NCBI GenBank assembly: GCA_020848745.1
Contig: JADLHM010000136.1
Span: 1-64,000 of the forward strand
Origin: Deltaproteobacteria bacterium
GTDB lineage: Bacteria; Desulfobacterota; Binatia; UTPRO1
DNA: 64,000 nucleotides
Direction of reading: 5' to 3'
Position 1 is the stretch's first letter; each line of letters starts with the position of its first letter. Below, piece after piece: positions 31,582 through 44,959 of the stretch. The notes below the pieces were generated by a model. That model made no database searches. It had not been told where the DNA came from and saw only the letters and a program-made list of their open reading frames with translations. A program made the position numbers and the translations under genes.

Positions 31582-32430
31582 ATGGGCTCCTCGACGCGAA
31601 GAAACCCGAGATCCGGCAAGGGGGAGGCCGGACGCGTTCTCGTTCCCGAGAAGGGCCGGCGCCGGGCATTCGCGGCCCTGGCAATGCTCGCGCTCGCCGC
31701 CTGGGGCCCGGCGCCGGCCGGGGCGATCTCCGGCGACGAAGTGATGCGGCGCTCGCTCGAGGCACGCAACCTCGGCGACGAGGCGTATCGCGCCTACCGG
31801 GTCGAGCTCACCGCGCGCGACGGCAGCACCGTCACCCGCACCGTGTCCACCTATCGCAAGAACTGCGACGGCGCCTCCAAGCAGCTCGTCGTGTTCCGTG
31901 AGCCGTCCGACATCGCCGGCGCGGCGTTCCTGAGCTGGATCCATCCCCACCGGATGCCCGACATGTGGCTCTATCTGCCCGAGCTCGGGCGGCCCCGGCA
32001 GGTGAACGCCGCCACGCGCGGCGAGAGCTTCCTCGGCTCCGATTTCACGTACGAGGATCTCGGCGCGCCGACGCAGGACGAGCGGACGCACCTCCTCGTC
32101 GACGAGCCGGTCGTCGAGAGCGAGCCGACGTACCGGATCGAGAGCCGGCCGCGCGCCATCGACCACTACGCCCGCATCCTCACCTGGGTGCGGCAGACCA
32201 GCTTCCTGCCGGTCCGCGTCGAGTACTTCGACGCCCGCGACGCGCTCGAGAAGGTGGGCCGCTACTTCGATGTCCGGGTCGTGAACGGCATCCCGACGCT
32301 CGCCGCGCTCGAGATGGCGAACGTCCGCACGGGGCACCGGACCGCCGTCACGCTGCTCGACGCGGAGTACGATCGCCCGGTCGACTGCGCGATCTTCAGC
32401 GAGCGCTGGCTCTCGCGTGCCCGGCCGTGA
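31582..32430 (+). CDS. Outer-membrane lipoprotein-sorting protein (LolA-like fold)
   Basis: Periplasmic protein of 282 residues with an N-terminal signal region (RRAFAALAMLALAAWGPAPAGA). The mature part starts SGDEVMRRSLEARNLGDEAYRAYRVEL and contains FLSWIHPHRMPDMWLYLPELGRPRQV and FLGSDFTYEDLG, hallmarks of the LolA-like 'outer membrane lipoprotein-sorting' family (PF17131-type). The half-barrel fold is thought to carry lipids. These proteins usually neighbour an RND/MMPL lipid exporter and a DUF1302 barrel; here the barrel is present (next gene, 14-base overlap) but no RND gene is in the window. Confidence 0.8.
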   Translation: MGSSTRRNPRSGKGEAGRVLVPEKGRRRAFAALAMLALAAWGPAPAGAISGDEVMRRSLEARNLGDEAYRAYRVELTARDGSTVTRTVSTYRKNCDGASKQLVVFREPSDIAGAAFLSWIHPHRMPDMWLYLPELGRPRQVNAATRGESFLGSDFTYEDLGAPTQDERTHLLVDEPVVESEPTYRIESRPRAIDHYARILTWVRQTSFLPVRVEYFDARDALEKVGRYFDVRVVNGIPTLAALEMANVRTGHRTAVTLLDAEYDRPVDCAIFSERWLSRARP

Positions 32431-33955
32431 CCCGTCGCGGCGACCGCGCGCGCTCCTCGCGCTCGTCCTGATCGTCGGGGCCGCGTCCCGTCCCGCCTCG
32501 GCCGCCGAGCTCCGCTCGCCCGACGGCCGCATGAGCCTCGCCGGCTCGCTCGCGACCTGGGACGTGATCCGTCTGCACGACGACACGCCGAGCGAGCGCC
32601 CCACGGGCCTTCTCGACCTCCGCCTCGACGCCACGACGACCGATCGCTGGCGCGTCTTCACCTCGCTCCGCGCCGGCTACGACGGCAAGATCGGCCATCC
32701 GCGCGGCGGCAACCCCTTCCTCGCGCTCGACGAGGTCTACCAGTCGAAGGACCTCTTCCTGAACCTCGACGAAGCCTACGTCGACCTCTACTTCGAGACC
32801 TTCGAGCTCCGGATCGGCAAACAGAAGATCTCGTGGGGACAGCTCGACGACATCCAGCCGACCGATCACTTCAATCCCCAGGACCTGACCGAGTTCTACT
32901 TCCGGCCCGAGCTCGAGCGGAAGATGGGCGTACCCGCGATCCGCTGGACGGGTTACGTCGGCGCGACCACGCTCGACGTCGCGTGGAATCCGATCTTCAC
33001 GAGCTCGCGCCTCGCGGCGCCCGAGGACCGCTGGTTCGCGCCGCTGCTCCGCGTTCCCGAGACCTTCGACACGCCCTTCGGCCCGGTCCCCGTCGCCACG
33101 CGCTATCCCGACGTCGACCCGCCTCCGCACACGCTCGCGAGCTCCGACGTGGCGATCCGCCTCAAGCACTTCCACGAGGGCGTCGAGATGTCGCTCACCG
33201 GCTTCCACGGCTGGGACAAATGGGGCCAGACCTACGAGGGTCGCAGCGCGGCGACCGTCGCACCGACCGGCGACGCCGCGAACCCGCTCGCGACCAGCGT
33301 CGACGTGGACGTCGTACCGTCGACGCGCCGGATCACCGTCCTCGGCGCCGACCTCGCGATGCCGCTCCTCTGGTTCGCCCTCCGCGCCGAGGCGGCCTGG
33401 ATCCACGGCCGCGGCTTCCCGCTGCGCGTGCAGGAGACGCTGGCGAGCGACCCGCAGCTCTTCCAGGTGGTCGGCGAGGCGGCAGAGCGCGTGGCGCAAA
33501 CCGGCACGGCCGAGACGGTCGCGCTGCCGATCCCGCCCGCGGCACTCGAGCGCGAGTGCCTGCAGTGGGGCATCGGCCTCGACTGGTTCGTCACCGAGCG
33601 CGTCTCGCGCCGCCTCGTCGGCCGCGAATGGCTCGCGGGCACCTTCTTTCTCGCGCAGCTCCTCCAGACCGTCATCTTCGACCACGACGCCGCCTTCATC
33701 GACGATTCGGTCGAGAGCCTTCTCGCCGCGACGATCCGCCAGAGCTTTCTCGACGAGCGCCTCGGGATCGAGCTCAAGACCGTCTACAACCCGAACCACG
33801 GCGACTGGTTCGTCTGGCCGCAGACGTCCTACCGCCTGACCGAGAGCCTCTCCGCCCTCGCCGAGGCCCGGCTCATCGGCGGCTCACCCAGACAAACGAT
33901 CGGCCAGTACCACGATCACGACGGCATCAAGCTCGGCATGCGCTGGTCGTTCTGA
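32417..33955 (+). CDS. DUF1302-family outer-membrane beta-barrel protein
   Basis: Predicted outer-membrane protein of 512 residues with a signal peptide (ALLALVLIVGAASRPASA) and a C-terminal aromatic residue (MRWSF), the signature recognised by the BAM complex. The pattern of alternating strands, and IGKQKISWGQLDDIQPTDHFNPQDLTEF in the first third, match the DUF1302 family. These are porin-like barrels often linked to lipid or steroid uptake or export. It begins with GTG and overlaps the LolA-like gene by 14 bases, so translation is probably coupled. It converges with the diheme protein gene. Confidence 0.82.
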   Translation: MPGRDPSRRPRALLALVLIVGAASRPASAAELRSPDGRMSLAGSLATWDVIRLHDDTPSERPTGLLDLRLDATTTDRWRVFTSLRAGYDGKIGHPRGGNPFLALDEVYQSKDLFLNLDEAYVDLYFETFELRIGKQKISWGQLDDIQPTDHFNPQDLTEFYFRPELERKMGVPAIRWTGYVGATTLDVAWNPIFTSSRLAAPEDRWFAPLLRVPETFDTPFGPVPVATRYPDVDPPPHTLASSDVAIRLKHFHEGVEMSLTGFHGWDKWGQTYEGRSAATVAPTGDAANPLATSVDVDVVPSTRRITVLGADLAMPLLWFALRAEAAWIHGRGFPLRVQETLASDPQLFQVVGEAAERVAQTGTAETVALPIPPAALERECLQWGIGLDWFVTERVSRRLVGREWLAGTFFLAQLLQTVIFDHDAAFIDDSVESLLAATIRQSFLDERLGIELKTVYNPNHGDWFVWPQTSYRLTESLSALAEARLIGGSPRQTIGQYHDHDGIKLGMRWSF

Positions 33956-33968
33956 GTCGTGACCGCCC

Positions 33969-36900
33969 TCACCGGTCGTTGTCGTCGTGCACCTCGAGAG
34001 CGAGCGTCGCGACGTCGTCGGCGGGCGTCGGGTCGGTCCCGGGACCGGCCGCGCGGATCGCGAGCTGGCAGCGCGCGGGCGTCGCGGCCGGCGAGAAGAA
34101 GTCGGCGGCGGCGATCGTGAGCGCGAGCGTCGCCGTCTTGCGCTTGCCGGCGCCGACGACGAGGCGGTCCTGCGCGCCCGCGACCCGCGGCGCGAAGTCG
34201 GGACCGGCCGTCACGATCCCGGCCGGGCAGTTGCCGGTCTCGACCACGACGCGGATCTCGTGGCCGGGCGTGCCGCGGTCGGCGACAACGTCCTCGTTCC
34301 GGACCTTCACGCGCAAGCGCAGCGTCTTCGCGGCGACGCCGTCGCGCAGGTGCACGCGCTTCGGGCGGCGGTAGCCGGTGATGCCGGAGTCGTGACCGCC
34401 GCCCCCCGGCCCGGGCGTGGCGGTCGGCTGCGGAAAGACGAAGGTCGGCGTCGGCGCCGGGCCGTCGCCGACCGAGAAGCGGCGGTCGACGCGCGTGACG
34501 TTGCCCTGCCGATCGGCGACCGCGACCCGCAGATGCGCGGTCGCAACGTCGATGAGCGGCGGTGTGAACGCGACCGACCAGATGCCGTCGCCGACGACGG
34601 TCGCGAGGTCCGCGAGCTCCGTGCCGGGACCGCGCCCCGCGATCGGCACGTCGGCGGTGATCGAGAGCGAGCCCGCCTCGAGTCCGGAGTCGGCGTCGGC
34701 GGCGCCGATCAGGAGCGAGCCGAGCGCCCCGCTGTTCCAGCCGGGCCGCGGCAGCGTCACCGCGAGCGCGGGGCGGAGGTCGTCGAGGAACCAGCCGTAG
34801 CCGTTGGTGGTGAGGTCGATCGGACAGCCGAGGTCGACCCAGCGCGCGATCGTGCGCTTCTCGTCCTCGCCGAGCGCCGGGACGCCGCTTCCGGGCGGCG
34901 GCATGATCGTGCCGGTGTAGTCGAGGTCGGCGGCGTTCGGATCGGCGCCGCCCGGCAGCGTCGCGCGCACGCCGGGCGTCGACTCGGTCGGGTGGTCGGC
35001 GTTGGTCCAGCCGTCGAGGCGTGCGCCGAAGATCTTCCAGACGAGCAGCGAGCGCCGGCTCTGGAAGCTCCGCACGTAGCGGCTCGCGTTCGTCTGCCGC
35101 CAGCTCGTGGGCCCGACCGGCGGATACCCCCAGCGCGCCGAGCGGTCGTCGGCGAGCCGCGCGTAGTCGCCGGGCACGCCGCCGACGGCGGCGAGGTCAT
35201 CGAGCACGAGATTCCCCGGCGGGCTCGCCGCGTTCTTGGTGTGGCACGGCACGCAGCTCCGCTGCAGGAGCGGCCGCACGTCGCGCAGGAACTCGACGGT
35301 CACGGCGGGCACCGGCTCCGTGCGCGTCGTCGGGGAGCCGTCGGGCGCAGCCGCGAGCAGCGGCGTCTCGTGCACGAGGTCGGCGACCGGGAAGCCGGGC
35401 TGCCCCGCGGCGGTCGCATGGAAGTCGAGCGGCAGCTGGCTGTGCGCGTGGCAGCCGCCGCAGTCGTAGCGCGCCTCGCCCGGTCGCACCTGGTGCCACG
35501 TCTGCGCCATGTTGAGCACGAGCCCGCGCCGGTCGAGCGTCTGGAACGTGAACGGCGTGTCGGCGGGAATGCGCGCCACGAAGCTCGTGTCGGGATTGCC
35601 CTCGGGATCCAGGAGCGGCGCCCCACCCGGTCCCGTCTTCCGCACCGGGATCTCGCCGAGGATGCGCAGGCGCTCCATCGCGTGGCTCGCGAACAGCGGC
35701 CCGCCGCTCGGCCCGCCGTGCGGGCCGTAGCTCCGGTGCGTGTTCGGCTCCATCGCGAGGAGGCGGATCGCCCAGACGTCGTCGTCGTCGTAGCGGCCGG
35801 CGTCGGCGCCCTGCCATTCCCAGTTGCTGCTCTGGCCGTTCTCGGCGGTATTGAACGCGTCGAGCCCGTCGAAGGTGTTCGACCACGAGGGCACGAACCC
35901 GGGGAAGCTCTCGCGCTTCAGGAGGCTGCTCGTGCCGACCAGACCCGTCGCCGTACCGGCCGGCAGCTCGGCGTGCTCCGTGCCGTCGTTCGGGAGCCAC
36001 GGCAGGACGTCCGGCTGGTCGACGCCGTGCACGGCGCGGTACGGCACCACCGCACGCGGCCACGCCTCATTGTAGCTCGGGTCGTTCTTCACGAGCACAA
36101 GGTCGCCCGGCGCGTGCACGACGTCACCGTTCGGCACGACGTAGATGCCGCCGTCGTACTCGGGCGTCGAGATCGGACGGTCGAGGTCGTTGGCGGGCCC
36201 CGGCGTCCACACCACGAGGAGATCGTTCGCGGGCGCCGCCGAGGGGTGCGTGAACTTGCCGACGCGTCCCCCGCCCGATCCCACCGGCGCGGCCTCGTCG
36301 TTGCCGTGCGTGAACGGCGTGATCGAGAACAGGCCGAAGGGCGTGAACGCCATCCGGAAGTCGTAGCGGAAGCCGCCGCCGACGGTCTGCGCGATCGCGG
36401 GATTGTCCTCGGGGAAGGCGCTGAAGAACGACGGCGTCCCCGCGGGCGCCGCCGGCGGCAGGCGATAGAGCGCGCCGAAGCCGTTGTTGTTGAGGTTGTA
36501 ATAGTCCACGACGACGAGGTCGCCGTTCCCGAGCTGGGTCAGGAAGTGGAACGCCTGCCCGCTCCGGAACGCGCTCACGACCGGCCGCCACGCGCGGCCG
36601 TCGGGCTGGATCGACCAGACACCCCACATGCGGCCGTCGCGGAGCCCCTGGCTCTCGAGCGTGGAGTACGCGAGCCGGCCGTCGCGCAGGGGTGTGGGGT
36701 GGAGCGCGCTCCCGATGCTCATCGGCGCGATCGGCGTCACGTTGGCGCCGTCCTCGTCCATCACGAAGAGCTGGAGCGTCGGGTTGGTGAGGCCGCGCGG
36801 GGGCACGAAGCCGTTCCGGTTGCTGGTGAACGCGACCTTCCCGCCCGCGACCGGCGCCGGCCCGAGATTCAGGATGCCGTAGCCGAGGGAGTCGTGACCG

Positions 36901-37388
36901 GCGGCGGGATCCACCGGGTTCGACTCGTCGAAGGTTCCGGCGCCGGTGTTCGGGGTGAACTCGCCGAACGTCAGACGGGTGATCGCGCGGGTCGCAAGCT
37001 CCAGCCGGTAGATGTCGGCGCCGCCGTACGGCAGCCCACGTTGGGAGTTGTAGGCCTGCGGGCGGACGTCGGGGAACAGGCTGTAGTAGACGAAGCGGCC
37101 ATCGAACGAGACGAAGGGATCGGTGACGGCGCCGTTGCCGCCCGCGACGAGCAGCGCCTCGCTGCCGTCGGGGTGCAGCACCATCAAGTCAGCGCCGGGC
37201 TCGAGGCTCGCCGGGTGCGCGACTTCCGGCCAGGTCGCCCCGGTGGTGTCGCCGTAACGCGGCTGGCGGACATAGACGATGTCATAGTCTCGCGCCGCCG
37301 CCCCCACGTCGCGCGACGCCACCATGACGGCGAGCGTACAAAATGCGGCAGCGAGCCCGCGGAGCGTCCGTCGCTTTCGTCCGGTCAT
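33969..37388 (-). CDS. Diheme cytochrome c protein with beta-propeller, hydrazine synthase alpha-like
   Basis: Secreted protein of 1139 residues with a signal peptide (LRGLAAAFCTLAVMVASRDVGA). The N-terminal ~480 residues contain TolB/PD40-like propeller blades (DIVYVRQPR, LMVLHPDGSEALLV, DPFVSFDGRFVYYS, QLFVMDEDGANVTPI). Two c-type heme motifs follow: CGGCH (about residue 641) and CVPCH (about 711), with a possible axial Met in TIMPPP (about 828). This layout resembles hydrazine synthase subunit alpha and its many non-anammox relatives in heterotrophs. The C-terminal ~260 residues hold an Ig/cadherin-like segment, a Pro/Thr/Gly-rich linker and a beta-rich domain. The function is unknown; periplasmic redox activity is likely. 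The ATG is preceded by GGGGAAGG. Confidence 0.75.
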   Translation of the reverse strand: MTGRKRRTLRGLAAAFCTLAVMVASRDVGAAARDYDIVYVRQPRYGDTTGATWPEVAHPASLEPGADLMVLHPDGSEALLVAGGNGAVTDPFVSFDGRFVYYSLFPDVRPQAYNSQRGLPYGGADIYRLELATRAITRLTFGEFTPNTGAGTFDESNPVDPAAGHDSLGYGILNLGPAPVAGGKVAFTSNRNGFVPPRGLTNPTLQLFVMDEDGANVTPIAPMSIGSALHPTPLRDGRLAYSTLESQGLRDGRMWGVWSIQPDGRAWRPVVSAFRSGQAFHFLTQLGNGDLVVVDYYNLNNNGFGALYRLPPAAPAGTPSFFSAFPEDNPAIAQTVGGGFRYDFRMAFTPFGLFSITPFTHGNDEAAPVGSGGGRVGKFTHPSAAPANDLLVVWTPGPANDLDRPISTPEYDGGIYVVPNGDVVHAPGDLVLVKNDPSYNEAWPRAVVPYRAVHGVDQPDVLPWLPNDGTEHAELPAGTATGLVGTSSLLKRESFPGFVPSWSNTFDGLDAFNTAENGQSSNWEWQGADAGRYDDDDVWAIRLLAMEPNTHRSYGPHGGPSGGPLFASHAMERLRILGEIPVRKTGPGGAPLLDPEGNPDTSFVARIPADTPFTFQTLDRRGLVLNMAQTWHQVRPGEARYDCGGCHAHSQLPLDFHATAAGQPGFPVADLVHETPLLAAAPDGSPTTRTEPVPAVTVEFLRDVRPLLQRSCVPCHTKNAASPPGNLVLDDLAAVGGVPGDYARLADDRSARWGYPPVGPTSWRQTNASRYVRSFQSRRSLLVWKIFGARLDGWTNADHPTESTPGVRATLPGGADPNAADLDYTGTIMPPPGSGVPALGEDEKRTIARWVDLGCPIDLTTNGYGWFLDDLRPALAVTLPRPGWNSGALGSLLIGAADADSGLEAGSLSITADVPIAGRGPGTELADLATVVGDGIWSVAFTPPLIDVATAHLRVAVADRQGNVTRVDRRFSVGDGPAPTPTFVFPQPTATPGPGGGGHDSGITGYRRPKRVHLRDGVAAKTLRLRVKVRNEDVVADRGTPGHEIRVVVETGNCPAGIVTAGPDFAPRVAGAQDRLVVGAGKRKTATLALTIAAADFFSPAATPARCQLAIRAAGPGTDPTPADDVATLALEVHDDNDR

Positions 37389-37600
37389 CGCCTTCCCCCC
37401 TTCGCGGTACCCCGCAGCGGGAACGGGAGCAAATGCGACGCCAACCGTCGAAGGCTGGCCCGCAGACCTGCCTGACCAAGGTCATGGACATCATTCCAGT
37501 GAAATGCCTCCGGTAGTCGGACCTGAGCTTCGACCAGCACGCACGCTCCGAGTGACGAGGTTCCCTGCTCCGGCAGGGCTCGCGGCCTAGAGGGAATCCC

Positions 37601-40600
37601 ATGGACACTGATTCGTCGCACGTACCGCGTCGGACACCGTGGCGTATCGTGGCTGCTGTTGCCGTAGCCACGGTTGCCCTGGTCACCGCGCCAGCCGCCC
37701 GCTGGAACGCGGAGGCGCAGGAACTCTCGGAAGCGGACGCGAAGCTTGCCGAGAAGTGTCAGAAGAGCCTTGCCAAAGCGGCGGCGACGTTCACGGGCAA
37801 GAGGCTCGGACTGGCCGGGACTTGCACCGAAACGATCTTCGCGTGCCTCCAGACCAAGCCGGACGGAGCGAAGCGGGACGCGTGCGTCGCGAAGGCGGCC
37901 ACGAAATGCCGCGGGGCGTTCGCAAAGATCGATGCGGCGACCGGCAAGCTGCACACCGCGATCATGAAGCAATGCGCGTCCTTGGGAGTCGCCGGGTTGA
38001 CCGCGCCGGATGGCCTGGGTTTCGCCGGGCACCCGCCCGCCTGCGAAGAAGCGCTCGGCCGTCCCGTCGGCTCGGTCGCGGATCTGGCGACGTGCCTGAC
38101 CGCGACCCACGCGTGCGCGATCGATGCGATGCTGGGCGTCGCGGCCCCGCGCGCCAAGGCCCTGCTCCGCCACGCGGGCGCGCTCGACGGCCTCGCCGAC
38201 CCCTTCCTCTGCCTTCCCGATCGTGGGGGCACCGACGAGGCGGTCGCGGACCGCCGCGGTACCGGGAAAGCTCTCACCAAGTGTGCGCGGGCGATCCGCA
38301 CCAAGGCCAGCGCGCTCGGCGCGAAGCGGCTGAAGGCGCTCGGGCGCTGCGCTACGGCGCTCTTCGCGTGCGAGCAACGCGACGACCAGGCCTGTCGCAC
38401 CAAGGCGGCCACGTCGTGCGAGAAAGCCTTCGCGGCCGTCGCCGCGGCGGCGGACGACCTCCCCTCCGACCTCGCCGCCAAATGCGCCTCGCCGCTCCAG
38501 GCCGAAGCCCTGCAGCTCGCGGGCCTCCACCTCGGTGCAGTCACCGACGTATGCGCCGCCGTGGGAGTGCCGGTCGTTGCGAGCTTCGGCCAGCATGCAA
38601 CCTGCCTGATCCGGCAGCAGGCATGCGCCGTCGAGGAGCTGGCGCAAGCAGCCGTTCCCCGCGCCGCCGGACTCCTCGCCGCGCAGGGGCTCTCGCTGTA
38701 CAGCCCGTTCTGTCCCGGAGCGCCGCCGCTGCCGACGCCGACCCCCGTGACGACGCCGGTCCGCACCGCGACCCCCACCGCCAGCCCGACGCCGGGTCCG
38801 GGGAGCTGTGGCAACGGCCTCATCGATGGCGCCAAGGAAGTCTGCGACGGCGCCGCGCTCGCCGGTGCGACCTGCGCCACGCTCCGCTTCGCCGGCGGCA
38901 CGGTGGCATGCGCGGCCTCGTGCCGCGGCTTCGACAGCACCGGCTGCACCCTGCCGGGAGAGCCGCCGCCCGATCCGGCCACCGTGGCGCCGCCCCCGGA
39001 CCTCAGCGTGGTCAGCGGGTTCGGCGCCACGGTGGACTTCCTCTTCCGCGGCGATCCACCGATCCAGTACGGAGTGGTGGCCGGCACCATCGACCCCGTG
39101 ACCGCGGCCGTCGTGCGCGGCAAGGTGCTCGACGCCGGGGGCGCGGCGCTCGTGGGCGTCGAGATCCGCATTCTCGAGCGTCCCGAGTTCGGCGCCACGC
39201 AGAGCCGTGCCGACGGGGCATTCGATCTCGTCGTGAACGGCGGCGGGAAGCTGATCGTGCGCTACGAGAAGAGCGGCTTTCTCCCGGCGCAGCGTCAAAT
39301 CGACGTGCCCTGGCAGGACTACGTCGCCACCCCCGAGGTGCGGCTCTGTCCCCTGGATGCGCAGGCGACCGCGGTCGACCTCGCCACCGCGACCGGAATC
39401 ACGGTGGCGCGCGGCAGCCAGAAGACCGACGCCGACGGCACGCGCCGGGCGACCTTACTGATCGAGCCCGGCACGGCGGCCGAGATGCTGCTGCCCGACG
39501 GCTCGACGGAGCCGCTGACGCAGATGACCGTGCGTGCCACCGAGTACACCGTCGGCGCCTCCGGACCGGCACGGATGCCGGCGGTCCTGCCGCCGACCAG
39601 CGGCTACACCTACGCCGTCGAGTTCTCGCTCGACGAGGCGATGGCGGCGGGCGCGCCGATGGTGCAGTTCGACCGCCCGATCCCGACCTACGTCGAGAAC
39701 TTCCCGGGCTTTCCGGCCGGGACGGCCGTACCGGCGGGCTATTACGATCACCTTCGCGGCGCCTGGGTCGCGGCGCCGAACGGCCGGGTCATCGACGTCG
39801 TCGGCATCACGAGCGACCGGGTCGATCTCGACGTGACCGGCGACGGCGTCGCCGACACCGGCACGGCGCTCGCGGATCTCGGCATCGACGACGGCGAGCG
39901 GGCGACCCTCGCCACCCTGTACGGCCCCGGCACGAGCCTCTGGCGCGTCCCCGTCGATCACTTCTCGACCTGGGACTACAACTGGCCGTACGGACCGCCG
40001 GGGGACGCCGAGTCGCCCGCCGACTCGGGTGCGGGGGCGCAGAGCGACGACGAGCCGATCGACGGGTCGTGTGAAGCCCGGGGTAGCGTCATCGAGTGCG
40101 AGAACCAGGTGCTCGGCGAGGACCTCGTCGTCGCCGGCACGCCCTACACGCTCCACTACCGGAGCGATCGCGTTCCCGGCCGCCTCGATTCGCTCGACCT
40201 CCGGCTCTCCGGCGCCGCGGTGCCGGCGAGCCTGCAGTCGATCCGGGTGCGGGCGACGGTGGCCGGCAATACCACCGAGCAGAGCTTCGCGCCCGGGCCC
40301 AACCAGTCGCTGGTGATGACCTGGAACGGCAGGGATGCCTACGGGCGGCCGGTCCAGGGCGGGCAGCGCGTCACGGGGTCGATCGACTACGTCTACCCTG
40401 CGGTCTACCGCTCGCCCGCGCAGCTCAACGAGGCCTTCGCCAACTTCGGCGGCACGGCCCTCACGGCCAATCGCGCGGCGGCGACGATCGCGGCCTCGAT
40501 GCCGTTCGAGGTGGTGTTGCGCGAGGGCATCACCGACGCTCGCGGTCTCGGGCTCGGCGGCTGGACGCTCGGCGTGCACCACTTCTACGACCCGACCACG

Positions 40601-43600
40601 CGCGTGCTCCATCTCGGCAGCGGCGAGCGGCGGCGGGCGGAGTCGGTGGCGCGGGTGATCGACCGCGTCCTCGAGTCCACCGGTCCCTTCGGCGGCAGCG
40701 GCACCCTGACGAGCGTCGCGATCGCGTCCGACGGCAGCATCTACTTCGCGCGTCTCGACAAGCGCATCCGCCGTCTGGCGCCCGACGGCACGGAGACGAT
40801 CGTGGCCGGCACCGGCAAGTCCAACGTCGGTCCGCCGGACGCCCCCTTCGGCGACGGCGGGCCCGCGACGCAGGCGAAGCTCATCACCTCGCCCACGACG
40901 CTCCGGTTCGGCGCCGACGGCTCGCTCTACTTCGTCGACCTCAGCGTGCTTCGACGGATCCGGCCCGACGGCATCATCGAGCGGGCGGCCGGCATCTACA
41001 ACTTCGGCGTCAGCCCCTGCCACGAGGCCAGCGTCACACCCGACGGCGCGGTCGCCCTGGAGTCGACGATCTGCATTGACGATTTCACCGTCGCCCCGGA
41101 CGGCACGCTCTATCTCGCCGTGTTCTATCCCTTCCCGGACGACAGCCGCATCCGCCGTGTCGGTCGGGATGGGACGCTGGTCACGGTTGCCGGCAGTGGT
41201 CCGTGCCCCCCCTTCCACAGCGGCACCTGCGGCGACGGCGGCCCCGCGGTCGCGGCAAAGCTCCTCGCCGGCAACCGCAAGATCGCGCTCGCTCCCGACG
41301 GCACACTCTATCTCACGGACGGCAATCGCATCCGCAAAGTCACCAGCGACGGCATCATCACGAGCGTCGCGGGTGTAGATTTCCAGAATGGGTTTGCGGG
41401 GGACGGCTTCCCCGCCAGTTCGGCCACGCGGTTTTGTGGCCCGACGGGCTTCGCCTTCACTCCAGACGGCGCGGTCATCATCGTCGACGGCAACAACAAC
41501 CGCGTGCGCCGCATCGCGGCCGATGGCCTGGTCTCCACGATCGTCGGCTCGGGCACGGCGTGCGGGGTTGCCAACATCGGCCAGGCCGGGGACGGCGGAC
41601 CGGCGCTGCAGGCGATCATCGCCTGGCCGCAGCAGTTGGCGCTCGCACCGGACGGCGACGTCTTCGTGGTCGCCGGCCTACCGCGCCGCATCCGACGCAT
41701 TGGAAAGCCGCTTCCCGGCTTCAGCGCCGCCGACATCCTGGTCGCCTCAGAAGACGGCCGCCTGCTCTACGCCTTCGATCCCAACGGCAAGCACCTCGCG
41801 ACCTTCGACGCGCTCACCGGGGCGCTGCGGCGCGCGTTCGCGTACGACGCGGCGGGGCGCCTGGCGCAGGTGATCGAGAAGACCGGCGCCACCGACAACG
41901 TCACCACCATCCAGCGCGACGGCGCCGGCCACCCGACCGCGATCGTGGGCCCGTTCGGGAAAGCGACCGCGCTCGGCGTCGACGGTAACGGCTTTCTCGC
42001 CTCGATCACGAATCCCGCGGGCGAGACCACCGCGCTCGGCTCGACGGCGAGCGGGCTCCTCACGACGCTCACCGCCCCGGGCGGACGCACCGGCAGCTTC
42101 ACTTACGACGCCGCCGGCCGGCTGCTCACGGACGAGGACCCGGGACCCGGCTCGCAGACCCTCGACCGCAGCGGGCCGCCCGAGGCCTTCACCGTGATCC
42201 GCACCACCGCCCTCGGACGCGCCACGACCTACGAGGTCGAGCGCCTGCCGGACCGCGTCGAACGGCGGACCATCACGGCGCCCGACGGCACCGCCGCGAT
42301 CGTGACCGACAACAGAGACGCGGCGACCCGCACCACCTCCGCGCCCTCCGGTACCGTGCATACGATCACCGCGGGCGGCGATCCCCGCTTCGGCATCCAG
42401 GCGCCGGTGGCGACCAGCGTCTCGCTCCAGTTCCCGGGCGGGCTCACCGCGCTCACCACCAACGCGCGCACCGCGACCGTCGCGAACGTTCTCGATCCGT
42501 TGAGCCTGGTCACCCTGACGGAGACGTCGACGGTCGCGAGCCACACGTGGACGACCACGTACACCGCGGCGACGCGCACGCTGCTCACCACCAGTCCGCT
42601 CGGGCGCACGCGCACGCTCACGCTCGACGCGCTCGGCCGCCCCGCCACGTTGCAAGCCTCGGGCGGTGCCGCCACCGCCGCGACCTACGACGGCCGCGGC
42701 CGCCTGGCGACGGTCACGACCGGCACGCCACCGGCGGAGCGGGTGGTCACCTTCGGCTACGATGCCCAGGGGATCGTGGCGACCGTCACCGACCCGATCG
42801 GGAGGACGGTCACCATGGAGCGCGACGGGGCGGGCCGGCTCATCCGCAAGATCCTGCCCAGCGGGGACGAGATCCACGTCGACTTCGCCGCCAACGGCGA
42901 TTTCGCGGGCATCACGCCGCCCGGACGCCCCGCGCACGCGTTCGCCTACGACGCGCGGGGGATGCTCGCGAGCATCACGCCGCCGGCAGTGGCCGGCACG
43001 GGAGCGACGACGTTCGCCTACGACGACGACGGAGCGCTCACCACCGTCACGCGTCCCGGCGAGAGCGTCGTCTTCGCGTACGATGCGGCGGGGCGACTCG
43101 CCACGCTGGATCTCGACGTCGACGACGGGCCTCAGGGCGCCTACACGGTCGGGTACGACGCCACGACCGGCCAGGTCGCCACCGCAACCGGCCCGGGCGG
43201 CGCCACGCTCGCCTATGGTTACGACGGTGCCCTCGTCGCCGGCGTCACCTGGAGCGGTCCGGTCACCGGCAGCCTGACGCTCGAGCACGACGCCCGCCTG
43301 GCCATCACGACCGAGTCCGTGAACGGCGGCGCATCCATCACCTTCACGCACGACGACGACGATCACCTGATCGCGGCCGGTGCGCTCGCGATCAGCCGCG
43401 ATGCCGCGACCGGCCTCCCCGCGACGACCACGCTCGGGGTGGTGAGCGACACCTGGACCTACGACGGCTTCGGCGACCTCACCGACTACGCGGCCACGGC
43501 CAACGGCGCGCCGCTCTACGCGGAGAGCTGCGACCACGACGGGCTCGGCCGCATCACGCGCCGGGTCGAGACGATCGCCGGCGGCACCGACACCTACGAC

Positions 43601-44959
43601 TACGCCTACGACGCGAAGGGCCAGCTCACCGAGGTGCGGCGCGACGACGCCGTGGTCGAGAGCTACACCTACGATCCGAACGGCAACCGCACGGCGGCCA
43701 CGGTGGGCGGCAGCAGCGTCACCGCCACGTACGACGATCAGGACCGCGTGCTGACCTACGGCACCGCGACGTTCACCCACACGCCGAGCGGGCGCCGCGC
43801 CGAACGCACGACGCCCGGCGGGACGACCGCCTACACGTACGACGCCGTCGGGAATCTTCTCGCCGTGAACCTCCCGAGCGCTACGGACGTCACCTACGCC
43901 CTCGATCCGGGCATGCGGCGGGTCGCGCGCGACGTGGACGGGGTGGCGGCGGAGCGTTTCCTCTATTCGGGCAACCGGCCCATCGCCGAGCTCGACGCCG
44001 GCGGCGCACTGGTGACGCGCTTCGTGTACGCGGGCGGGCCGGCCCCGGCGTATTTCGTGCGCGGCGGCACGGCTCACCGGCTGCTCACCGACCACGCCGG
44101 CAGCGTGCGCCTGGTGGTGAACGCGGCGACGGGCGCAGTCGTCCAGCGGCTCGACTATGACGGCTTCGGCCGCGTGACGCTCGACACCAATCCCGGCTTC
44201 CAGCCCTTCGGCTTCGCGGGCGGACTCTACGATCCGGCGACCGGGCTGGTGCACTTCGACGCGCGCGACTACGATGCCGCGACCGGCCGCTGGACGGCCA
44301 AGGACCCGATCGGCTTCGCCGGCCTCGACACCAACCTCTACCGCTACGCCGGCAACGATCCGGTGAACTTGCACGACCCGAGCGGGCTCACGGTCGGCGA
44401 GATCATCACCGGCGTCATGGCCGGCCTGGTGGACATCGCCATGTTCCCGGTGAGCTTCTCGCACGGAATGGCGGTCTTGAACGCCAACTTGACCGGACAG
44501 CCCGTGCCCCCCGATCCCAACCCGATCGTGGGATTCTTGAATGCGCTGAACGAGATCGCCGCCAACTTCTTCGACGCCGAGCCGCTGGTCGAGACCGATG
44601 GTACGGCCTTCACCGCGACCCGAATCTGCAGCTCCATCGTGGGAACGCTCGGCGCGGGCGCCGCGGCCGGCGCGGGGCGCGCCGCCGGCGCGAGCGGGGG
44701 CATCCGACCGGCCATGCAGGCGGCGGGGAGAGGCATCGCGCAGACGGCCGACGACGCCTATCGACCGCTGGTGTCCGGACAGGCCGCGCGCGCCGAGCGG
44801 CTCGCGGCGGAGAACGCCAAGCGCATCGCCGAGCAAGAGGCCAAACAAGCCGCGCAGCAGGCAAGCGAGCGCGAGCTATGGCTGATTCGTCCCGAGGGTG
44901 GCGGCGCCGGCACCCATGGAGTTGGCAAACCGGCAGGGGGATTCGGCATCGGGCGGTAA
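37601..44959 (+). CDS. Teneurin-like RHS/YD-repeat secreted protein
   Basis: Very large protein (2452 residues). In order: signal/transmembrane segment (15-35), two related Cys-rich helical repeats (about 47-200 and 215-370), a Pro/Thr linker (375-400), a CGNGLIDGAKEVCDG Cys-rich repeat (403-450), a carboxypeptidase-regulatory-like domain (505-580), a beta-rich part, NHL/teneurin-type propeller blades (about 1025-1370, VAIASDGSIYFA and LALAPDGDVFVVAG), dozens of YD repeats (1390-2180) and the RHS core ending DPIGFAGLDTNLYRYAGNDPVNLHDPSG (about 2235-2262). The core would form a hollow beta shell. The last ~190 residues show hydrophobic stretches and an Ala/Glu/Lys helix but no recognisable toxin. 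AGAGGGA precedes the ATG. Confidence 0.88.
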   Translation: MDTDSSHVPRRTPWRIVAAVAVATVALVTAPAARWNAEAQELSEADAKLAEKCQKSLAKAAATFTGKRLGLAGTCTETIFACLQTKPDGAKRDACVAKAATKCRGAFAKIDAATGKLHTAIMKQCASLGVAGLTAPDGLGFAGHPPACEEALGRPVGSVADLATCLTATHACAIDAMLGVAAPRAKALLRHAGALDGLADPFLCLPDRGGTDEAVADRRGTGKALTKCARAIRTKASALGAKRLKALGRCATALFACEQRDDQACRTKAATSCEKAFAAVAAAADDLPSDLAAKCASPLQAEALQLAGLHLGAVTDVCAAVGVPVVASFGQHATCLIRQQACAVEELAQAAVPRAAGLLAAQGLSLYSPFCPGAPPLPTPTPVTTPVRTATPTASPTPGPGSCGNGLIDGAKEVCDGAALAGATCATLRFAGGTVACAASCRGFDSTGCTLPGEPPPDPATVAPPPDLSVVSGFGATVDFLFRGDPPIQYGVVAGTIDPVTAAVVRGKVLDAGGAALVGVEIRILERPEFGATQSRADGAFDLVVNGGGKLIVRYEKSGFLPAQRQIDVPWQDYVATPEVRLCPLDAQATAVDLATATGITVARGSQKTDADGTRRATLLIEPGTAAEMLLPDGSTEPLTQMTVRATEYTVGASGPARMPAVLPPTSGYTYAVEFSLDEAMAAGAPMVQFDRPIPTYVENFPGFPAGTAVPAGYYDHLRGAWVAAPNGRVIDVVGITSDRVDLDVTGDGVADTGTALADLGIDDGERATLATLYGPGTSLWRVPVDHFSTWDYNWPYGPPGDAESPADSGAGAQSDDEPIDGSCEARGSVIECENQVLGEDLVVAGTPYTLHYRSDRVPGRLDSLDLRLSGAAVPASLQSIRVRATVAGNTTEQSFAPGPNQSLVMTWNGRDAYGRPVQGGQRVTGSIDYVYPAVYRSPAQLNEAFANFGGTALTANRAAATIAASMPFEVVLREGITDARGLGLGGWTLGVHHFYDPTTRVLHLGSGERRRAESVARVIDRVLESTGPFGGSGTLTSVAIASDGSIYFARLDKRIRRLAPDGTETIVAGTGKSNVGPPDAPFGDGGPATQAKLITSPTTLRFGADGSLYFVDLSVLRRIRPDGIIERAAGIYNFGVSPCHEASVTPDGAVALESTICIDDFTVAPDGTLYLAVFYPFPDDSRIRRVGRDGTLVTVAGSGPCPPFHSGTCGDGGPAVAAKLLAGNRKIALAPDGTLYLTDGNRIRKVTSDGIITSVAGVDFQNGFAGDGFPASSATRFCGPTGFAFTPDGAVIIVDGNNNRVRRIAADGLVSTIVGSGTACGVANIGQAGDGGPALQAIIAWPQQLALAPDGDVFVVAGLPRRIRRIGKPLPGFSAADILVASEDGRLLYAFDPNGKHLATFDALTGALRRAFAYDAAGRLAQVIEKTGATDNVTTIQRDGAGHPTAIVGPFGKATALGVDGNGFLASITNPAGETTALGSTASGLLTTLTAPGGRTGSFTYDAAGRLLTDEDPGPGSQTLDRSGPPEAFTVIRTTALGRATTYEVERLPDRVERRTITAPDGTAAIVTDNRDAATRTTSAPSGTVHTITAGGDPRFGIQAPVATSVSLQFPGGLTALTTNARTATVANVLDPLSLVTLTETSTVASHTWTTTYTAATRTLLTTSPLGRTRTLTLDALGRPATLQASGGAATAATYDGRGRLATVTTGTPPAERVVTFGYDAQGIVATVTDPIGRTVTMERDGAGRLIRKILPSGDEIHVDFAANGDFAGITPPGRPAHAFAYDARGMLASITPPAVAGTGATTFAYDDDGALTTVTRPGESVVFAYDAAGRLATLDLDVDDGPQGAYTVGYDATTGQVATATGPGGATLAYGYDGALVAGVTWSGPVTGSLTLEHDARLAITTESVNGGASITFTHDDDDHLIAAGALAISRDAATGLPATTTLGVVSDTWTYDGFGDLTDYAATANGAPLYAESCDHDGLGRITRRVETIAGGTDTYDYAYDAKGQLTEVRRDDAVVESYTYDPNGNRTAATVGGSSVTATYDDQDRVLTYGTATFTHTPSGRRAERTTPGGTTAYTYDAVGNLLAVNLPSATDVTYALDPGMRRVARDVDGVAAERFLYSGNRPIAELDAGGALVTRFVYAGGPAPAYFVRGGTAHRLLTDHAGSVRLVVNAATGAVVQRLDYDGFGRVTLDTNPGFQPFGFAGGLYDPATGLVHFDARDYDAATGRWTAKDPIGFAGLDTNLYRYAGNDPVNLHDPSGLTVGEIITGVMAGLVDIAMFPVSFSHGMAVLNANLTGQPVPPDPNPIVGFLNALNEIAANFFDAEPLVETDGTAFTATRICSSIVGTLGAGAAAGAGRAAGASGGIRPAMQAAGRGIAQTADDAYRPLVSGQAARAERLAAENAKRIAEQEAKQAAQQASERELWLIRPEGGGAGTHGVGKPAGGFGIGR

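Follow-up and report, generated by a model that had tools for sequence, protein, structure and literature searches.

A solitary diheme relative of the hydrazine synthase subunit HzsA in a member of the Binatia

Hydrazine synthase long seemed to be an enzyme without relatives. Here, we are describing a gene at positions 33,969–37,388 (minus strand) of a 64,000-nucleotide stretch of contig JADLHM010000136.1 (assembly GCA_020848745.1, Deltaproteobacteria bacterium, Binatia), which in its full length is called "the window" in the following. Its product is related, over nearly its full length, to HzsA, the alpha subunit and core of the anammox enzyme hydrazine synthase, but, judged from its sequence, it is not a hydrazine synthase itself. 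It belongs to a large, conserved clade of solitary proteins that keeps the alpha fold without the tyrosine heme ligand or the partner subunits; thus, the clade shows what this fold may do without nitrogen chemistry. We favour, with some reservation, the interpretation that the window protein is a secreted diheme c-type oxidoreductase which works on its own and is related to HzsA by descent and fold; its substrate and mechanism are what we infer below.

The gene and its kinship with HzsA

The open reading frame starts with ATG and runs without an internal stop. An antisense frame of similar length is present at 33,987–37,475 (plus strand); however, codon scoring favours the minus strand, and the minus-strand protein is encoded at 80 homologous loci (kept out of 142 relatives found), among which the nearest, L003, is 90% identical from residue 1. 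Codon scoring and homologous loci together identify the minus strand as coding. In 2000 shuffles of the protein, CxxCH motifs occurred with a mean of 0.001 and two of them never (0/2000). On these three grounds, an artefact, a chance motif and a real antisense gene were each rejected. The protein carries heme motif I (CGGCH) at residues 643–647 and heme motif II (CVPCH) at residues 712–716; together with the cytochrome c maturation genes of the same genome (three matches to PF01578), these give it the attributes of a c-type cytochrome. Family-wide statements are based on an alignment of 74 rows (A1), comprising the window protein (P0001) and 73 of the 80 loci; L024, L025, L040, L052, L071, L072 and L074 were omitted as cut or of unsure extent. 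The features of the gene, all on the minus strand, are as follows.

33,969–37,388 (−): HzsA-like diheme c-type protein, 1139 amino acids (reading frame, Pfam, profile and structure matches)
37,293–37,388 (−): N-terminal hydrophobic segment, residues 1–32, probable signal peptide (sequence; helix 8–26 in the model)
36,033–37,292 (−): TolB/HzsA-like beta-propeller, residues 33–452 (model, structural matches)
35,448–35,597 (−): HZS_alpha middle domain, residues 598–647, with heme motif I at its end (Pfam PF18582)
35,436–35,462 (−): clade signature CGGCHAHSQ, residues 643–651 (A1 alignment, hhalign)
34,779–35,306 (−): cytochrome c-like domain with CVPCH (712–716) and candidate ligand Met829 (sequence, A1 profile and alignment)
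34,902–34,904 (−): Met829 within IMPPP, candidate distal heme II ligand (methionine in 63 of 74 A1 rows)
34,467–34,778 (−): Ig-like beta-sandwich, residues 871–974 (model strands; homology of relatives stops near 973; named by eye)
34,329–34,466 (−): Pro/Thr/Gly linker, residues 975–1020 (sequence; pLDDT below 50)
33,972–34,328 (−): lineage-specific C-terminal domain, residues 1021–1139 (shared with L003, partly with L004)

An earlier note on this DNA, made from the letters alone, had been reminded of HzsA by the order of propeller, CGGCH, CVPCH and a possible distal methionine, and had suggested a search for the HZS alpha middle domain. This search returned Pfam HZS_alpha at 46.9 bits (gathering cut-off 26.6), the match covering only profile positions 49–97 of 98. 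In the PDB, HzsA was the sole match both with the single sequence (E 4.8e-8) and with the A1 family profile (E 7.1e-18). Alignment of A1 by hhalign to 23 HzsA sequences (A3; 23 of 27 HzsA loci, with L140, L144, L148 and L151 omitted) gave a probability of 99.7% over 641 columns at 24% identity. The AlphaFold2 model of the window protein (mean predicted local distance difference test, pLDDT, 82.5) retrieved HzsA as the top Foldseek match (E 1.8e-27). In the structural comparison (VIA), HzsA was likewise the best solved structure, with Z 32.8 and a root-mean-square deviation of 3.2 for 598 residues (33–870 on 55–800), and the three-domain fold of HzsA is present in the model. The next matches are TolB propellers, which cover the N-terminal domain only (residues 28–452, Z about 26). 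In both the window protein and HzsA (5c2v; NF052339), which match over the full length of their profiles, the propeller comes first, followed by the HZS_alpha domain and then the heme II domain; in the window protein, an extended middle region lies between the first two. Because profile and structural matches both reach HzsA, the resemblance extends beyond CxxCH motifs and propeller repeats, to which it might have been confined.

The C-terminal third is less uniform. The Ig-like sandwich is found across the solitary family and is lacking in HzsA, whereas the linker and the C-terminal domain, which the earlier note had listed as further differences from HzsA, are both real but vary among lineages and are no property of the family. 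Residues from about 975 to 1139 are mostly modelled with a pLDDT below 50. Many planctomycete relatives stop right after the Ig-like domain, others bear long extra tails, and 11 targets (L011, L018, L020, L058 and others) have an FxxxFE-type C-terminus (IFADGFE/LIFADDFE), which also occurs in three other proteins on the same loci and is perhaps an export or anchoring signal. The C-terminal domain of the window protein has no other copy in its own genome; it was, thus, rejected as a sorting domain shared within the genome. We infer that the tails are lineage-specific surface or export modules.

Departures from hydrazine synthase

Against the HzsA equivalog profile NF052339, the window protein scores 40.1 bits at a cut-off of 800, while intact full-length HzsA of Planctomycetota reach 1351–1642 bits; HzsA above this cut-off was found in 27 genomes of a sample of 392 Planctomycetota, where the motif reads CxGCH-[YDW]-G-S-Y. 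According to the accessible text of PMC12607021 and PMC12758564, Tyr591 of HzsA acts at heme alpha-I, His587 binds zinc and heme alpha-II is bis-His coordinated; PMC12607021 gives a redox potential of about −360 mV for the latter. Tyr591 and His772 are invariant in the 23 HzsA of A3. In the hhalign alignment, Tyr591 (CxxCHxxSY, the heme alpha-I ligand) faces Gln651 of the window protein without a gap. From the bis-His pair of heme alpha-II (His689/His772), the window protein keeps the counterpart His716; in the region corresponding to HzsA His772, ahead of the last helix, the solitary family has IMPPP, with methionine in 63 of 74 rows. Also the spacing of the heme motifs differs (69 residues in the window protein versus 102 in HzsA). 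Cys303 of the HzsA zinc site is opposite Leu299, within a gapped stretch of the alignment; as reported in the available part of PMC12758564, this cysteine is absent from some anammox HzsA, too.

The second group of differences concerns the partner subunits. BLAST with a fused beta-gamma protein and with HzsC finds a beta-gamma relative at 25 of the 27 HzsA loci and at 5 of 17 CHE-type loci, including the locus from which the query was taken, but at none of the 80 solitary loci; the flanks of these loci are unequal in length, with 36 extending at least 5 kb on both sides. The genome of the window, 99.5% complete in 155 contigs, has no HzsC match, and the fused beta-gamma query finds only matches to its residues 10–228, outside the heme half. 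Thus, no anammox or hzsBC genes were found in this genome, which bears out the setting outside anammox recognized in the earlier note; beside the gene, too, no relative of hzsB or hzsC was found. Among 11 carrier genomes, six, including that of the window, are without an HzsC match; the other five have partial matches, which fall within reading frames of at least 1299 amino acids.

Taken by its sequence, the window protein is, consequently, not a hydrazine synthase, and, since partner subunits and the key tyrosine are missing, it probably acts as a redox enzyme on its own. Retention of HzsA-like nitrogen chemistry, i.e., turnover of hydroxylamine, nitric oxide or hydrazine at heme I without a gamma subunit, has to be weighed, given that the homology covers the heme alpha-I domain, at which the hydrazine-forming step of HzsA has been proposed to occur (PMC12607021, in its accessible part). 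However, the replacement of the invariant Tyr591 by Gln651, the lack of HzsC relatives in six of the 11 carrier genomes and the judgement of a 2025 survey, as far as its available text goes, that non-anammox homologues are without key residues (PMC12758564) make this option very improbable.

HzsA homologues outside anammox have already been published, and the window protein falls within a superfamily that is already known, whose HZS_alpha proteins are uncharacterised. The accessible text of Hagglund et al. 2025 (PMC12758564) describes clades I–IV of HZS-alpha homologues, which have a beta-gamma gene co-located with them and have lost key residues, and reports over 600 hits by structure, most of them annotated as HZS_alpha or cytochrome c proteins. 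These clades resemble the solitary proteins in being HzsA-like, in occurring in non-anammox bacteria and in missing key HzsA residues. In contrast, they were selected for a co-located beta-gamma gene (0/80 in the solitary clade). Clades I–III are described as having a two-residue gap at Ser590/Tyr591; in the hhalign alignment, the glutamine of the solitary clade is placed on the tyrosine gap-free. In 2023, hydrazine synthase-like enzymes had been proposed to form a broader family acting on other substrates (PMC10732223); in its available part, that work on metagenome-assembled genomes (MAGs) from the Oslofjord deals mainly with hzsABC-like operons of Phycisphaerae, without setting a solitary clade apart. 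OFTM-numbered MAGs, of the kind used in that study, contribute seven of the 80 loci (L004, L009, L010, L023, L030, L032 and L059). A literature search, covering listings and passages of papers, found no paper that singles out a solitary clade, its CGGCHAHSQ signature or the exopolysaccharide link discussed below.

A proposed secreted oxidoreductase

An uncharacterised periplasmic redox enzyme, as suggested in the earlier note, remains the best reading of the gene, refined by the prior publication of non-anammox HzsA-like proteins and by the missing tyrosine ligand. In the mechanism we propose, either a small molecule or the terminus of a larger substrate would reach heme I in the middle domain via a funnel that may be lined by the invariant residues His230, His281, His632, His649, Trp255 and Trp631. 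With the tyrosine gone, His647 of the CxxCH motif is the likely proximal ligand of heme I. A putative His/Met heme II would then pass electrons to, or take them from, a soluble carrier. Display of the enzyme at the cell surface is suggested by the variable C-terminal tails, and in some lineages it may work together with an XrtA-type exopolysaccharide (EPS) system.

Alternatively, the protein could be a non-catalytic surface cytochrome, whose hemes just store electrons or relay them to outside acceptors and whose propeller serves as a binding scaffold. Its two CxxCH motifs with a typical cytochrome c domain and its varied surface-type tails would fit such a role, as would the conserved His632 and His649, which lie near heme I in sequence and could make this heme six-coordinate. 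Yet, the many invariant propeller residues and the HZS_alpha site that is invariant across phyla suggest a specific substrate, the protein has two hemes only, and CxxCH occurs in 2 of 141 adjacent genes called around the 80 relatives; we regard this alternative as unlikely.

The link to EPS derives from 5 of the 80 loci, at which the gene lies within an XrtA/PEP-CTERM exopolysaccharide cluster, two of them in Hahella (L034, L037), one in Paraglaciecola (L039) and two in Acidobacteriota (L027, L030). Among the neighbours scanned there, NCBIfam identifies XrtA deacetylase, XrtA glycosyltransferases, O-glycosylation ligase, export protein, exosortase and PepA. Among 42 carrier genomes, seven have TIGR03087 above its cut-off; five of the seven hold the loci just named, with the gene at most about 6 kb away from it. 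Since this link had been picked after seeing the data, further stretches were examined (15 from 14 genomes, 12 of them new). One of them, L180 of genome G714, has genes for a deacetylase, an exosortase, a glycosyltransferase and a beta-helix protein next to a relative that has 30% identity to P0001 and keeps CGGCHAHS. A narrower form of the favoured explanation would, thus, be an EPS-linked oxidoreductase that modifies the matrix or couples to it. The six XrtA/PEP-CTERM loci speak for it, as do the beta-helix gene near the four non-Acidobacteriota ones (two Hahella, Paraglaciecola and G714) and the retention of the link in G714 in spite of the low identity. On the other hand, the link was first noticed post hoc among many families, and the Hahella, Paraglaciecola and G714 loci may stem from one event; we regard this version as unlikely. 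We read the association as real in some lineages and not as the function of the clade.

Several points weigh against the proposed oxidoreductase. The EPS link is absent from the window itself, from 75 of the 80 first loci and from 14 of the 15 follow-up stretches. The AlphaFold2 model was folded without hemes, and the heme ligands were assigned from sequence. In the Met829 column, methionine occupies 63 of 74 rows, while seven have cysteine and four other residues or gaps. Finally, the second alpha heme of HzsA is described, in the accessible part of PMC12607021, as lying too far away for electrons to pass efficiently between it and the other hemes; if this distance holds in the window protein, heme II may not serve heme I.

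On balance, the secreted stand-alone oxidoreductase is still the interpretation we prefer. A more far-reaching view, which we put forward as speculation, is that the CGGCHxH clade might form a new class of heme enzymes that work outside the cell and without partners, descended from the fold which also gave rise to hydrazine synthase. In such an enzyme, heme I would be re-ligated, with a second histidine two residues past CxxCH, electrons would leave through a His/Met heme II of its own, and the target would be the EPS matrix or redox chemistry inside it. Given that a single-gene system is present in culturable genera (Lysobacter, Marinicella, Hahella and Wenzhouxiangella), the non-anammox role of the fold is testable.

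Conservation, distribution and gene neighbourhood

Identity within the clade is 44–90%, and rows of A1 are 48–90% identical to P0001. CGGCH, His632, His649 (74/74), the second CxxCH and Trp784/850 are invariant in A1, and both CxxCH motifs are present in every aligned relative. Exceptions to CGGCHAHSQ in the tree set are a few rows with lysine or another residue at the glutamine position, or with serine at the alanine position. Three more distant relatives (L181, L182 and L183) have CxGCHVHT, also with a histidine two residues past CxxCH; therefore, the CHxH feature is not limited to the CGGCHAHSQ clade.

According to phylum ranks taken from submitters' titles, the 80 loci derive from Planctomycetota (36), Pseudomonadota (19), Acidobacteriota (13), Myxococcota (4) and one each of Binatota, Chloroflexota, Hydrogenedentota and Verrucomicrobiota, with four unplaced; the clade spans at least seven phyla. 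L012 and L027 share one genome, as do L055 and L080. The distribution is patchy: A1 matches 24 of 145 genomes in the class of the window at E ≤ 0.001 (six weakly), 5 of 369 in the class of Hahella at 1e-100 (three being distant) and 11 of 396 Acidobacteriota. A tree of 22 of the 74 solitary rows plus L125, 8 of the 27 HzsA, 22 CHE-type segments and two others, made by a quick method whose program warned of long branches meeting, has three long-branch blocks, i.e., the solitary clade (support 93), HzsA (100) and the CHE-type (99). Phylum labels on the solitary part change 13 times versus a minimum of seven; the excess may reflect transfer, but also paralogy or bin errors.

The neighbours of the gene are those given in the earlier note, a DUF1302 barrel and an RHS protein, with the barrel being below the Pfam cut-off (21.6 versus 23.2 bits).

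31,684–33,955 (+): LolA_like protein, then DUF1302-like barrel, convergent with the gene (Pfam)
37,601–44,959 (+): RHS/YD protein, 2452 amino acids (Pfam)

The Pfam order of the RHS/YD protein is teneurin-like (TTR-like, weak FN-plug, NHL, YD-shell). It was rejected as a partner, since in the nearest relative, L003, the upstream neighbour is a T2SSE ATPase with no RHS gene between. Also a conserved operon partner across the clade was dismissed: among 68 adjacent same-strand genes (A2; 68 of 70 such neighbours within 700 bp), 130 Pfam families were found, none of them in more than two members. At ten planctomycete loci (L049, L050, L053, L054, L055, L060, L064, L065, L069 and L070), a family of small proteins is encoded directly upstream of the gene; these appear thioredoxin-like by eye, with CYVC where the N-terminus is called (e.g., L055:9231–9737), and the one that was scanned had no Pfam match.

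The genome of the window encodes a second HZS_alpha protein on contig C89 (L113:6775–9489, minus strand), of about 900 amino acids, with a single CxxCH (CGSCHGVN) and 38.2 bits, above the Pfam cut-off; one-heme types resembling it are found at L122 and L124. HZS_alpha domain matches by themselves are not a marker of anammox. Among the 392 Planctomycetota genomes, 75 have HZS_alpha above cut-off, and seven (G193, G301, G314, G316, G433, G446 and G476) have at least 12 copies, a large expansion of the domain; the copies examined from G301, G314 and other genomes are of the CxGCHE/D type.

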